Positions 4,076 to 19,168 of a stretch of 19,168 nucleotides of DNA are shown in pieces; within the stretch, counting starts at the first letter, position 1; each line of letters starts with the position of its first letter. Both the position numbers and the translations under genes were made by a program. The stretch is from assembly GCA_902373545.1 (NCBI GenBank), contig CABKMZ010000037.1:1-19168 (forward strand). Direction: 5' to 3'. The DNA is from an uncultured Actinomyces sp. (lineage in GTDB: Bacteria; Actinomycetota; Actinomycetes; Actinomycetales; Actinomycetaceae). The notes below the pieces were generated by a model, which made no database searches, was not told where the DNA came from, and saw only the letters and a program-made list of their open reading frames with translations.

Positions 4076-4450
4076 TTACTTGGCCTTCTTCTTGCCTGCA
4101 ACGGTGCGCTTGGGGCCCTTGCGGGTACGCGCGTTGGTCTTGGTGCGCTGACCGTGGACCGGCAGGCCACGACGGTGGCGAAGGCCCTGGTACGAACCGA
4201 TTTCGATCTTGCGACGAATGTCGGCCTGAACCTCACGGCGGAGGTCACCCTCAACCTTGAAGTTTGCCTCAATGTAGTCACGAAGCTTGACGAGTTCCTC
4301 TTCCGTCGCGTCCTTCACGCGAGTGTCCGGGCTGACGCCGGTGGCGGCGAGGGTCTCTGCCGCGCGGGTGCGGCCGACTCCGTAGATGTATGTGAGCGCG
4401 ATCTCGAGCCGCTTCTCGCGGGGGAGGTCGACGCCGGCAATACGTGCCAT
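4076..4450 (-). CDS. rpsM: 30S ribosomal protein S13
   Basis: S13 is in the head of the 30S subunit, contacting the P-site tRNA and bridging to L5. The 124-residue product starts [26 protein letters not shown], has the helix-hairpin-helix region at about 14-45, and ends in the basic rRNA-binding tail with [27 protein letters not shown] (89-115). An in-frame ATG 24 nt further upstream would add MNNWSNIT, but the family start is MARIAG and GGAG lies 10 nt ahead of it, so 4450 is used. The gene is preceded by a 148-nt structured gap. Confidence 0.97.
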
Positions 4451-4974: not shown

Positions 4975-5010
4975 ATCCTCCGTTTATCCTCTACATGTCT
5001 CGGATAGGTT

Positions 5011-5024
5011 GCGGCGGATGCCGC
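5011..5024 (-). other. Small hairpin in the infA leader
   Basis: GCGGC/GCCGC with a 4-nt loop lies about 37 nt before the infA start, directly next to the CGGATAGGTT motif. Its function is not evident. Confidence 0.4.
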
Positions 5025-17950: not shown

Positions 17951-18259
17951 TCAGAGCTTGATCTCGATGTTGACGTCCGCAGGCAGGTCGAGGCGCATGA
18001 GCGAGTCGACGGCCTTGGGGGTCGGGTCGATGATGTCGATGAGCCGCTTGTGCGTGCGCATTTCAAAGTGCTCGCGGCTGTCCTTGTACTTGTGGGGCGA
18101 CCGGATGACAACGAAAACGTTCTTCTCGGTCGGCAGCGGCACCGGGCCCACGACCGTGGCGCCCGCACGCTGTACGGTGTCCACGATCTTGCGCGCGGAG
18201 CTGTCGATGACCTCGTGGTCATACGACTTGAGCCGGATGCGGATCTTCTGTCCCGCCAT
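17951..18259 (-). CDS. rpsJ: 30S ribosomal protein S10 (NusE)
   Basis: S10 is a 30S head protein and, as NusE, a partner of NusB and NusG in rRNA antitermination and transcription-translation coupling. The 102 residues match the family throughout, including [58 protein letters not shown] and [16 protein letters not shown]. It is the first gene of the 21-gene S10-spc unit, preceded by a leader of about 300 nt and a recognisable promoter. Confidence 0.98.
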
Positions 18260-18296
18260 GCCGTCTTACCTCTTCTCGTACAGATTCGCCGCCGGT

Positions 18297-18318
18297 CCCC
18301 GCACTCGGGCGTGTCGCA
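18297..18318 (-). repeat. 22-bp direct repeat, copy A (rpsJ leader)
   Basis: Identical over 22 bp to 18571-18592. On the minus strand it reads TGCGACACGCCC then GAGTGCGGGG, with an internal CCCG-AGTG-CGGG mini-hairpin. This copy is 38 nt before the rpsJ start, in the transcribed leader, and lacks a -10 box behind it. Confidence 0.8.
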
Positions 18319-18370
18319 GCCGTTGTGCTCGCGATCCCTCGCGCAGACCGACGTCTTGTCCAAAGATCTT

Positions 18371-18409
18371 GGGCATATTGCCCGACCCATACGTGATGGC
18401 ACGCATGGG
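18371..18409 (-). other. Paired hairpins in the rpsJ leader
   Basis: CCCATACGT (18386-18394) pairs with ACGCATGGG (18401-18409) with one mismatch. It is directly followed in the transcript by GGGCA/TGCCC with a 3-nt loop (18371-18383). A third small hairpin, GCGGT/ACCGC (18520-18533), is near the 5' end of the leader. Tandem stems of this kind in a ribosomal-operon leader suggest attenuation or ribosomal-protein binding. Confidence 0.45.
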
Positions 18410-18564
18410 CCACCCCAGATACGCTGAGGCAACCGTGCCATTCTGTCAGAGTTCCACCCGCGAGCACAATCCCAACGGCTCATTCTCGCATGTGAAACCA
18501 CCGACAGAGTGGCGTCAGCGCGGTGTTTACCGCCTATGGCAGCAGCAACCGTCACCAAGAAACT

Positions 18565-18593
18565 AACGTACCCCGCACTCGGGCGTGTCGCAA
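18565..18593 (-). promoter_or_regulatory. rpsJ (S10 operon) promoter
   Basis: On the minus strand TTGCGA (18593-18588) is followed after 17 nt by TACGTT (18570-18565), matching TTGNNN and TANNNT with ideal spacing. Transcription would start near 18558, about 300 nt before rpsJ. Most of the -35 and the whole spacer are one copy of a 22-bp repeat. Confidence 0.6.
18571..18592 (-). repeat. 22-bp direct repeat, copy B (rpsJ promoter)
   Basis: Exact duplicate of 18297-18318, 274 bp apart. This copy supplies five bases of the -35 hexamer and the complete 17-bp spacer of the rpsJ promoter. Flanks of the two copies differ. Confidence 0.8.
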
Positions 18594-18887
18594 GTGGGGA
18601 TGCGTCACACCGCAGTTGTACGAGGCCTGCCTGGCCTGCGATGACAAGGTTATCCGCGCGTGTGGGGCCGCATTGCGCGCACAAGGGTGATCAGTCTCTC
18701 GACACAAACCCGTGCCCGCATGACGACAGCGCTCCGCGTGCGATGGTGCACCGCTGTCAGCATCACGCGCGACAATGGGCACAACACCACTAGTAACAAC
18801 CAACAACCCTCACAACGCCCGGTCCACACAACCAGACCAGGCCACCCCCGTGTGGAGTGGTGACACGATTGCGAACGTCCCACACAT

Positions 18888-18988
18888 GCGGATAGGTTAG
18901 CCACTCACGGATAGGTTAGCCGCTTACGGATAGGTTATGAGGCTATCCGCATGTGCGTAACCTATCCACGAGCGCGTTACCTATCCGC
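18888..18988. repeat. Symmetric array of six GGATAGGTTA motifs in a 19-bp register
   Basis: GGATAGGTTA occurs at 18890-18899, 18909-18918 and 18928-18937. Inverted counterparts are at 18939-18948 (degenerate, GAGGCTATCC), 18958-18967 (TAACCTATCC, exact) and 18977-18986 (TTACCTATCC, one mismatch). All neighbours within each arm are 19 bp apart, and all three pairs are centred on 18938. The whole is an imperfect 101-bp palindrome with 36 of 50 positions paired; mismatches fall mainly in the 9-bp spacers. A separate 13-bp perfect inverted repeat CACATGCGGATAG (18883-18895) and its complement (18943-18955) overlaps it. It lies between the tuf terminator and the rpsJ promoter. Operator array or dispersed palindromic repeat are both possible. 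Confidence 0.8.
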
Positions 18989-19050
18989 AAGCAACGCAAA
19001 CATGCCCACCCGGAGCGCCACACTCCCCCGCCGCACGCCGGGCATAGCGA

Positions 19051-19083
19051 AGGGCCCCGCCTCCACGTGGGAGGCGGGGCCCT
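19051..19083 (-). terminator. Terminator of tuf
   Basis: A perfect 14-bp GC-rich stem (19051-19064 with 19070-19083) closes a 5-nt loop, 53 nt after the tuf stop. There is no U-run, as in many actinobacterial terminators. Two smaller hairpins precede it in the 3' UTR: CTGAG/CTCAG (19114-19128) and CGCTG/CAGCG (19090-19105). Confidence 0.75.
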
Positions 19084-19136
19084 CAATGCCGCTGGATCAG
19101 CAGCGAATCATATCTGAGACAAACTCAGAGGGTGAT

Positions 19137-19168
19137 TCACTTGATGATCTTGGTGACACGACCGGAAC
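19137..19168 (-). CDS. tuf: Elongation factor Tu, C-terminal end (partial)
   Basis: The minus strand reads S-G-R-V-T-K-I-I-K then TGA at 19139-19137. GRVTKIIK is the characteristic C-terminus of bacterial EF-Tu, the GTPase that delivers aminoacyl-tRNA to the ribosome. The rest of the gene is beyond the right edge. The position upstream of rpsJ fits the str-S10 order rpsL-rpsG-fusA-tuf-rpsJ. Confidence 0.88.
   Translation of the reverse strand, partial: SGRVTKIIK

Follow-up and report, generated by a model that had tools for sequence, protein, structure and literature searches.

Dispersed bacterial repeats are often regarded as mobile debris. Among the described families, the REP, REPIN and BIME elements come closest to the arrays reported here, which occur in two sequence variants that we call dialects. 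As far as the available parts of the papers on them go (PMC3116915, PMC2817692), those elements are dispersed, extragenic, inverted and present in many copies, with sequence types tied to a partner, and the arrays share each of these properties, the partner being a putative one in their case. However, the RAYT/Y1 transposase (PF01797) that goes with REP/REPIN elements was found in none of 30 genomes of the genus, including 10 dialect-1 carriers and one dialect-2 carrier, while it was found in 5 of 14 control genomes. Compensatory changes are common in REPINs according to the accessible text (PMC3116915), whereas the arrays show no clear covariation and, unlike REP/REPIN elements, carry three phased sites in each arm. 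The STAR elements of staphylococci are similar in being short intergenic direct repeats of unknown function, with species-specific loci that expand and contract; the consulted excerpt gives their consensus as T(G/A/T)TGTTG(G/T)GGCCC(C/A), the repeats standing 40 bp or more apart (PMC3532100). By eye, neither this consensus nor this spacing was found in the arrays, which instead have a 19- or 20-bp pitch and dyad symmetry. The ERIC sequences and similar small repeats resemble the arrays in their length of about 100-150 bp, their intergenic position and their inverted ends, but in a comparison made by description only, the available portion of the source describes no internal fixed-pitch site array for ERIC (PMC2229807). 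The target duplications and 5' TA ends of the ERIC-like class were not seen in the arrays.

Other known systems share single features with the arrays. The DNA uptake sequence dialects of the Neisseriaceae, in the excerpts at hand, likewise involve a short word in the genome whose sequence varies from one related lineage to another. These uptake sequences are single words, whereas the arrays are phased and inverted and occupy tens of loci. In Tn402 and Tn5053, 19-bp transposase-binding repeats stand in rows and the two ends are unlike. The Mu-transpos_C domain (PF09299), by which carriers of a MITE of the Tn402, Tn7 or Mu-like kind would be recognised, was absent from all 12 carriers searched (10 of dialect 1, 2 of dialect 2); it was present in 3 of 35 genus genomes, all of them non-carriers, and in 0 of 14 control genomes. 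The DtxR/IdeR iron box, TTAGGTTAG-S-CTAACCTAA, is a 19-bp palindrome with AGGTTAGSCTAACCT spacing. Both array dialects contain AGGTTA, a half-site of this box, and one listed DtxR motif of C. glutamicum contains GGATAGGTTA (PMC1382209, as far as its available text shows), probably as a chance overlap through that half-site. The array centre, AGGTTA-N-TAACCT, spans 13 bp (AGGTTANTAACCT), compared with 15 bp in the box, and does not match it; moreover, the most constant part of the array sites is GGATAG rather than AGGTTA, and the sites stand in direct 19-bp rows. DtxR was set aside as a reader of the arrays because of the spacing.

The array described here lies between tuf and rpsJ in the window, that is, the whole stretch of 19,168 nucleotides that was analysed. 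It represents a single copy of an intergenic element that is specific to one lineage, the Schaalia odontolytica complex of mouth bacteria, and is dispersed through the genomes there. The parts of the array are as follows.

18883..18991, + strand: whole element; outer limits diffuse, orientation assigned by likelihood
18890..18899, + strand: outer left site GGATAGGTTA, exact match
18909..18918, + strand: middle left site GGATAGGTTA, exact match after a 19-bp step
18928..18937, + strand: inner left site GGATAGGTTA, exact match
18938, no strand: dyad centre, the single base between the inner sites, from a register test with 6 of 6 cores
18939..18948, - strand: inner right site, read as GGATAGCCTC from the sequence, core intact and 3' end degenerate
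18958..18967, - strand: middle right site GGATAGGTTA, exact match
18977..18986, - strand: outer right site GGATAGGTAA, one mismatch

The six-site inverted array was confirmed as real. All six GGATAG cores lie in 19-bp register around the dyad at 18938, which bears out the claim of the sequence-only reading that the array is perfectly centred; its count of six sites holds for the hexamer core, but for the 10-mer five sites are within one mismatch. When up to two mismatches were allowed, the 10-mer matched 10 times in the window against 4.25 expected, and 0 of 200 shuffles reached 10. The arms are 77% complementary across 47 nt. The + strand is the forward strand in the family model by 12.6 log units, so that the array is antisense to tuf and rpsJ. 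Elsewhere in the window, a lone intergenic GGATAGGTTG at 5002-5011 has no in-register partners and is perhaps a decayed array or a chance match.

The same element was found at many other places. The nearest genome examined (G001) contains 132 exact 10-mers, compared with 0 in the control. The tandem pattern, with at most one mismatch, was present in 10 of 200 family genomes, all belonging to one of the 36 genera sampled, and was absent from the other 35. Exact core pairs numbered 46-161 in each of 10 of the 35 genus genomes, with one pair in two more and none in 23. In a tree of the S10 region with 31 genomes, all 11 dialect-1 carriers, including the window, formed one clade with a support of 0.977. 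A search of a species collection gave 89 stretches, 86 of which came from six assemblies of the S. odontolytica complex. No match to the array was found in plasmid and phage sequences, and no report of this repeat was found in the titles and abstract openings of mainly open-access papers. Matches outside the genus in the genome-wide scan (L049, L072 and L117) appear to be fortuitous and were excluded from the counts, except that L117, a Bacillota record, stays in the table of 112 arrays used for genomic context, as codirectional, and in the list of one-sided clusters. These copy counts across the genus genomes uphold the suggestion, made from the sequence alone, of a genome-wide palindromic repeat. 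The choice that came with it, between hundreds of copies at random sites and a function, proved too simple: the repeat is dispersed, yet some of its copies have been retained at orthologous positions. Two of the six assemblies from the species collection are named Sanguibacter keddieii (L036, 250_SKED) and Xylanimonas cellulosilytica (L039, 352_XCEL); in them the repeat has flanks like those of the other carriers. Both organism names look wrong; the Sanguibacter keddieii record is doubtful because one of its arrays shares contig number and coordinates with a genome placed in the genus (G043).

The genes and conserved blocks around the array were compared with those of relatives.

17951..18259, - strand: rpsJ (S10), protein identity 97-100% in 30 of 30 genus genomes
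18549..18599, - strand: block upstream of rpsJ, apart from the array, conserved in 8 relatives; a promoter by position only
19051..19083, - strand: tuf terminator-like stem-loop, apart from the array, conserved in 8 relatives; named by position and stem

The gap between the last array site and the tuf stem is about 64 nt. A consensus scan showed no promoter-like site at the block upstream of rpsJ, and its failure to find a terminator-like site (a stem followed by a T run) in 18200-19168 is uninformative because it also misses the tuf stem-loop. Neither GGATAGG nor CCTATCC was present in the tuf-rpsJ gap of any of the 8 other array-bearing genomes in which the end of tuf was identified, nor in the 1.5 kb upstream of rpsJ in two further array-bearing genomes. 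The relatives have an intergenic length of 557-608 nt and the window one of 877 nt. Between the tuf stem-loop and the block preceding rpsJ the sequence is hypervariable, and the flanks of the array at this locus are unalignable among relatives. The sequence-only reading had offered an operator for the str/S10 genes, a suggestion that fails the refutation criterion set in that reading, namely absence of the array from this locus in relatives. A cis operator acting on tuf or on the S10 operon would fit the position of the array between tuf and rpsJ, but the region upstream of rpsJ is free of arrays in all 10 other array-bearing genomes checked, and the sequence in which the array sits is hypervariable; this explanation is largely refuted, and we give it next to no credence.

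The layout of the element is regular. Three sites per arm (3+3) is the usual form, seen in 59 of 118 distinct arrays. Each repeat unit consists of GGATAGGTTA and nine semi-conserved bases, the site itself is about 15 bp long (CATSYGGATAGGTTR) and recurs at a 19-bp pitch, and the arms face each other across a one-base centre. Among the core-to-core steps of dialect 1 up to 60 bp, 344 of 355 are 19 bp. At one locus, an arm that is made up of three units in G086 comprises six in the close relative G154, a change by whole steps, and the spacers within an arm are alike (z of 9.1 and 7.7). At L196:2119-5797 and L048:6110-7976, tandem duplications include arrays along with portions of the flanking sequence, and long rows of GGATAGGAAC units are present.

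To compare the divergence of cores and spacers, 171 orthologous pairs were filtered by flank length, flank identity and a spacer identity of at least 60%, and duplicates were removed. This left 61 in-register pairs and also took out pairs with more diverged spacers. Differences were seen at 11 of 2136 positions of the GGATAG core compared with 335 of 2106 spacer positions, a contrast that is inflated to an unstated degree because pairs share genomes and loci and because the arrays were recruited through the motif. Position 7 was changed in 23 of 356 cases, 21 of them in inner sites, and the three bases after it in 80 of 1068. In an analysis of 51 pairs in which a recognised site was not required in both members, which lessens but does not remove the inflation from motif recruitment, the core was exact in both members in 285 of 306 units; by our own arithmetic, about 35% would be expected if the core changed at the spacer rate. 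The other units comprised 8 with one core change and 13 with two or more, 12 of which were outermost units. Decay is stronger in the outermost units, of which 12 of 102 have at least two core changes. The idea that selection acts on the motifs themselves is supported far beyond this site, since cores are nearly constant relative to spacers at orthologous loci. Neutral minisatellite arms, spread by recombination without any binding protein, would account for the unit-wise expansion and for the resemblance of spacers within an arm. However, core and spacer differ about 30-fold in divergence although they lie in one unit, which makes a neutral origin highly improbable.

The two arms of the array are not mirror copies. 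When each inner site was read on its own strand, one of them had G and the other C at position 7 in 87 of 118 arrays, whereas both had the same base in 31. The linkers, the four bases beside the inner sites, showed an inverted identity of 1.06 versus 1.57 in 68 non-redundant dialect-1 arrays, with 0 of 5000 shuffles as low, and a same-strand identity of 1.69 versus 1.39 (14 of 5000 as high). The corresponding values for 19 dialect-2 arrays were 0.95 versus 1.76 (63 of 5000 as low) and 2.37 versus 1.67 (19 of 5000 as high). The CATSY part, which served as the control for this test, was inverted. The element is therefore polar, and its polarity is not tied to gene direction: we counted 14 sense and 17 antisense arrays in codirectional gaps, 3 and 3 in divergent gaps, and, relative to the nearer gene, 17 and 26 in convergent gaps. 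The orientation fit is partly circular, whereas the tests of arm difference (position 7 of the inner sites and the linkers) are not. The polarity may come from common descent of the elements, from functional handedness or from selection against perfect palindromes. An orientation-specific excess of wobble (137 forward, 83 reverse) was discarded, because 79 and 31 of these fall at five positions that differ consistently between the arms and the remaining 58 versus 52 are about even.

The genomic context of the arrays was examined using gene calls from a simple script that misses genes. None of 112 arrays overlaps a gene by more than 20 bases, and two touch a gene by a few bases. Both flanks were called for 76 of the 112, of which 37 are convergent, 32 codirectional and 7 divergent; the background, gaps of at least 120 bp in two syntenic 400-kb stretches (n = 283), has 34, 181 and 68, respectively. 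In terms of orthologous locus groups with context, 22 of 41 are convergent, 15 codirectional and 4 divergent, although this grouping is rough because one group joins 24 arrays through repeated flanks. Arrays thus favour convergent gaps: the share of 22 of 41 groups versus 34 of 283 gaps gives p of about 8e-9, and such p-values are too small because the background (16 of 142 and 18 of 141 per genome) counts the same region twice, in two related genomes. Convergent arrays make up a smaller part of the sample from G103, a dialect-2 genome, with 4 among the 17 that have both flanks.

The convergent context, together with a strong predicted fold (z of -7.1 for the minus strand of the window array), is what one would expect of a bidirectional terminator or an mRNA 3'-end hairpin that lies between convergent genes and acts as RNA. 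However, covariation in the hairpin is not clearly above that of shuffles: paired cells amount to 79.6% versus 78.8% in shuffles (28 of 500 as high), the covariation score is 0.126 versus 0.117 (36 of 500 as high), and there are fewer pair types than in most shuffles. Slid versions have 25-38% paired cells, a difference that is expected when the same site stands on both arms. This suggests that the arms are complementary because both carry the same site. In addition, the linkers of the arms are less complementary than chance (1.06 versus 1.57, 0 of 5000), a separate stem-loop lies directly behind tuf, and there is no orientation bias, so that a terminator or 3'-end hairpin is improbable. A search of the window against Rfam gave no match at the gathering threshold; four sub-threshold matches (E 0.18-0.41), two of them over the array, were taken as chance. 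An RNA element is thus disfavoured by the covariation, orientation and Rfam results.

A second dialect was found in two related genomes. A sequence model built from 56 elements and run on 121 family genomes gave 34-44 matches per genome for six carriers, along with two weak matches in G103; at a laxer limit, it gave 23 matches at 13 places in G103 (E 1e-4 to 0.19) and none in three further members of the genus. G103 is the sister of the dialect-1 carriers in the tree, in which G199 was not placed. In these two genomes the site is CATTGGGGYAGGTTA and the pitch 20 bp, with layout and centre as in dialect 1, and 56 of 65 steps among the eight commonest step sizes are 20 bp. In a direct pattern search of 35 genus genomes, 59 dialect-2 pairs were identified in G103, 76 in G199 and a single pair in G151, while the remaining 32 genomes had none. 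G103 and G199 contain no dialect-1 pairs, and the two dialects are nearly mutually exclusive among genus genomes. The lone dialect-2 array of G151, a genome otherwise of dialect 1, is at L263:3465 (contig 1 near 1471465). The centre word AGGTTANTAACCT has 2-21 matches in each of 12 carriers and 1-2 in nine genomes of eight other genera, where no phased units were seen by eye in the surrounding bases. Among the fetched loci, one of 19 G103 stretches has its array between relatives of the genes that flank a dialect-1 array of G001 (L281 and L199), and one further stretch has one flank in common with a dialect-1 locus. These are too few shared loci to claim conversion in place between dialects.

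Since the sites are almost unchanged and related species use the same design with another word and another spacing, a DNA-binding protein probably reads the array. Protein occupancy also fits better than RNA structure because the core is nearly constant, the linkers are freer, the covariation is unclear, the pitch is fixed and the second word has its own pitch. On this sequence evidence, we lean towards the arrays being binding arrays for a putative sequence-specific DNA-binding protein that co-evolves with them.

The main rival of this protein-binding reading is a non-autonomous, MITE-like mobile family, in which the arms would be transposon ends with rows of transposase-binding sites and the dialects would be families of different transposases. 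Several observations are consistent with it. The consistent difference between the arms gives the element a polarity, its orientation is independent of gene direction, and the presence of arrays varies between relatives. For example, a 400-kb stretch of G086 contains four arrays; G154 has counterparts to two of them, lacks a third and carries other sequence in place of the fourth. Because presence differs between such close genomes, arrays also spread or get lost. Among the 19 G103 stretches, a single one has the same two flanking genes as one of the compared dialect-1 loci, G151 has its single dialect-2 array, and an X arm and a Y arm in L105 flank about 3.8 kb. A mobile element would need conserved binding sites, too. 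On the other hand, the single filled and empty pair compared differs by about 257 bp and shows no clean target-site duplication of the array itself, the Y1 and Mu-transpos_C transposases are absent from the carriers searched, and the cores are kept in copies at orthologous loci. L105 aside, no one-sided arm was found in about 1.5 Mb of Schaalia DNA or in 20 further G001 stretches. Overall, a mobile family is possible but rather unlikely as the explanation. The two readings can both be true, if a host protein came to occupy the sites of a mobile family or did so from the start.

Four one-sided clusters were considered as candidate autonomous copies and rejected; three are in L105 and one, probably chance, is in the Bacillota record L117. 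In L105, the clusters that start at 398 and 4288 terminate in GGCTCTTC and GAAGAGCC, and TTATTAAG adjoins both ends (L105:443-458 and 4254-4270); the arm at 1293 ends at an assembly N. At L017:1365 in G001, an end similar to those of L105 adjoins array sequence. We read the L105 arm pair as a putative insertion sequence, presumably ISL3-like, that entered the centre of an array and was read across assembly joins. The gene between the arrays of L196, which we take to be IS256-like, was not retained as an autonomous partner, as it seems to have ends of its own.

Under the protein-binding reading, a sequence-specific, probably oligomerising putative protein would occupy the array sites. In the course of time, the elements have reached new intergenic positions. 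They occur chiefly between convergent or codirectional genes and seldom between divergent genes, and they gain or lose whole 19-bp units. Occupancy might then act at gene ends as a roadblock or an insulator or in an architectural role; the suggestion of an architectural-protein site, made for this array from the sequence alone, is possible in this sense. More tentatively, the arrays could form a chromosome-wide system in which a single putative protein recognises the phased, polar and inverted arrays at the ends of genes, the site word and helical pitch (19 versus 20 bp) vary at tens of loci between lineages, and protein and arrays co-evolve as dialects. Because the cores are fixed at shared loci while the intervening bases change, and because a related lineage has another word and pitch, it can be tested directly whether repeats of this kind serve as functional protein sites. 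A saturated transposon library has been published, according to the accessible part of the report, for S. odontolytica XH001, the host of the epibiont TM7x (PMC12369343), and this library allows the function of such repeats to be tested in an organism with genetic tools.

Array centres are scarce in what may be the terminus region of the chromosome. With the origin inferred from neighbouring genes, the presumed terminus contains 2 of 46 array centres in G001 (contig 1, 0.892-1.770 Mb) and 1 of 19 in G086 (contig 1, 0.968-1.825 Mb). When base 1 was taken as the origin, the distal third contained 3 of 27 clusters in G001 (p 0.013; p 0.052 for the distal half). In G086, where base 1 is probably not the origin, it contained 3 of 18 (p 0.21). 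A different kind of repeat, a long CRISPR-like array with a 61-bp period and the repeat GTTTTCCCCGCGTGAGCGGGGATGAGCC, was seen at L154:4365-9146 (G086 contig 1, about 504.4-509.1 kb).
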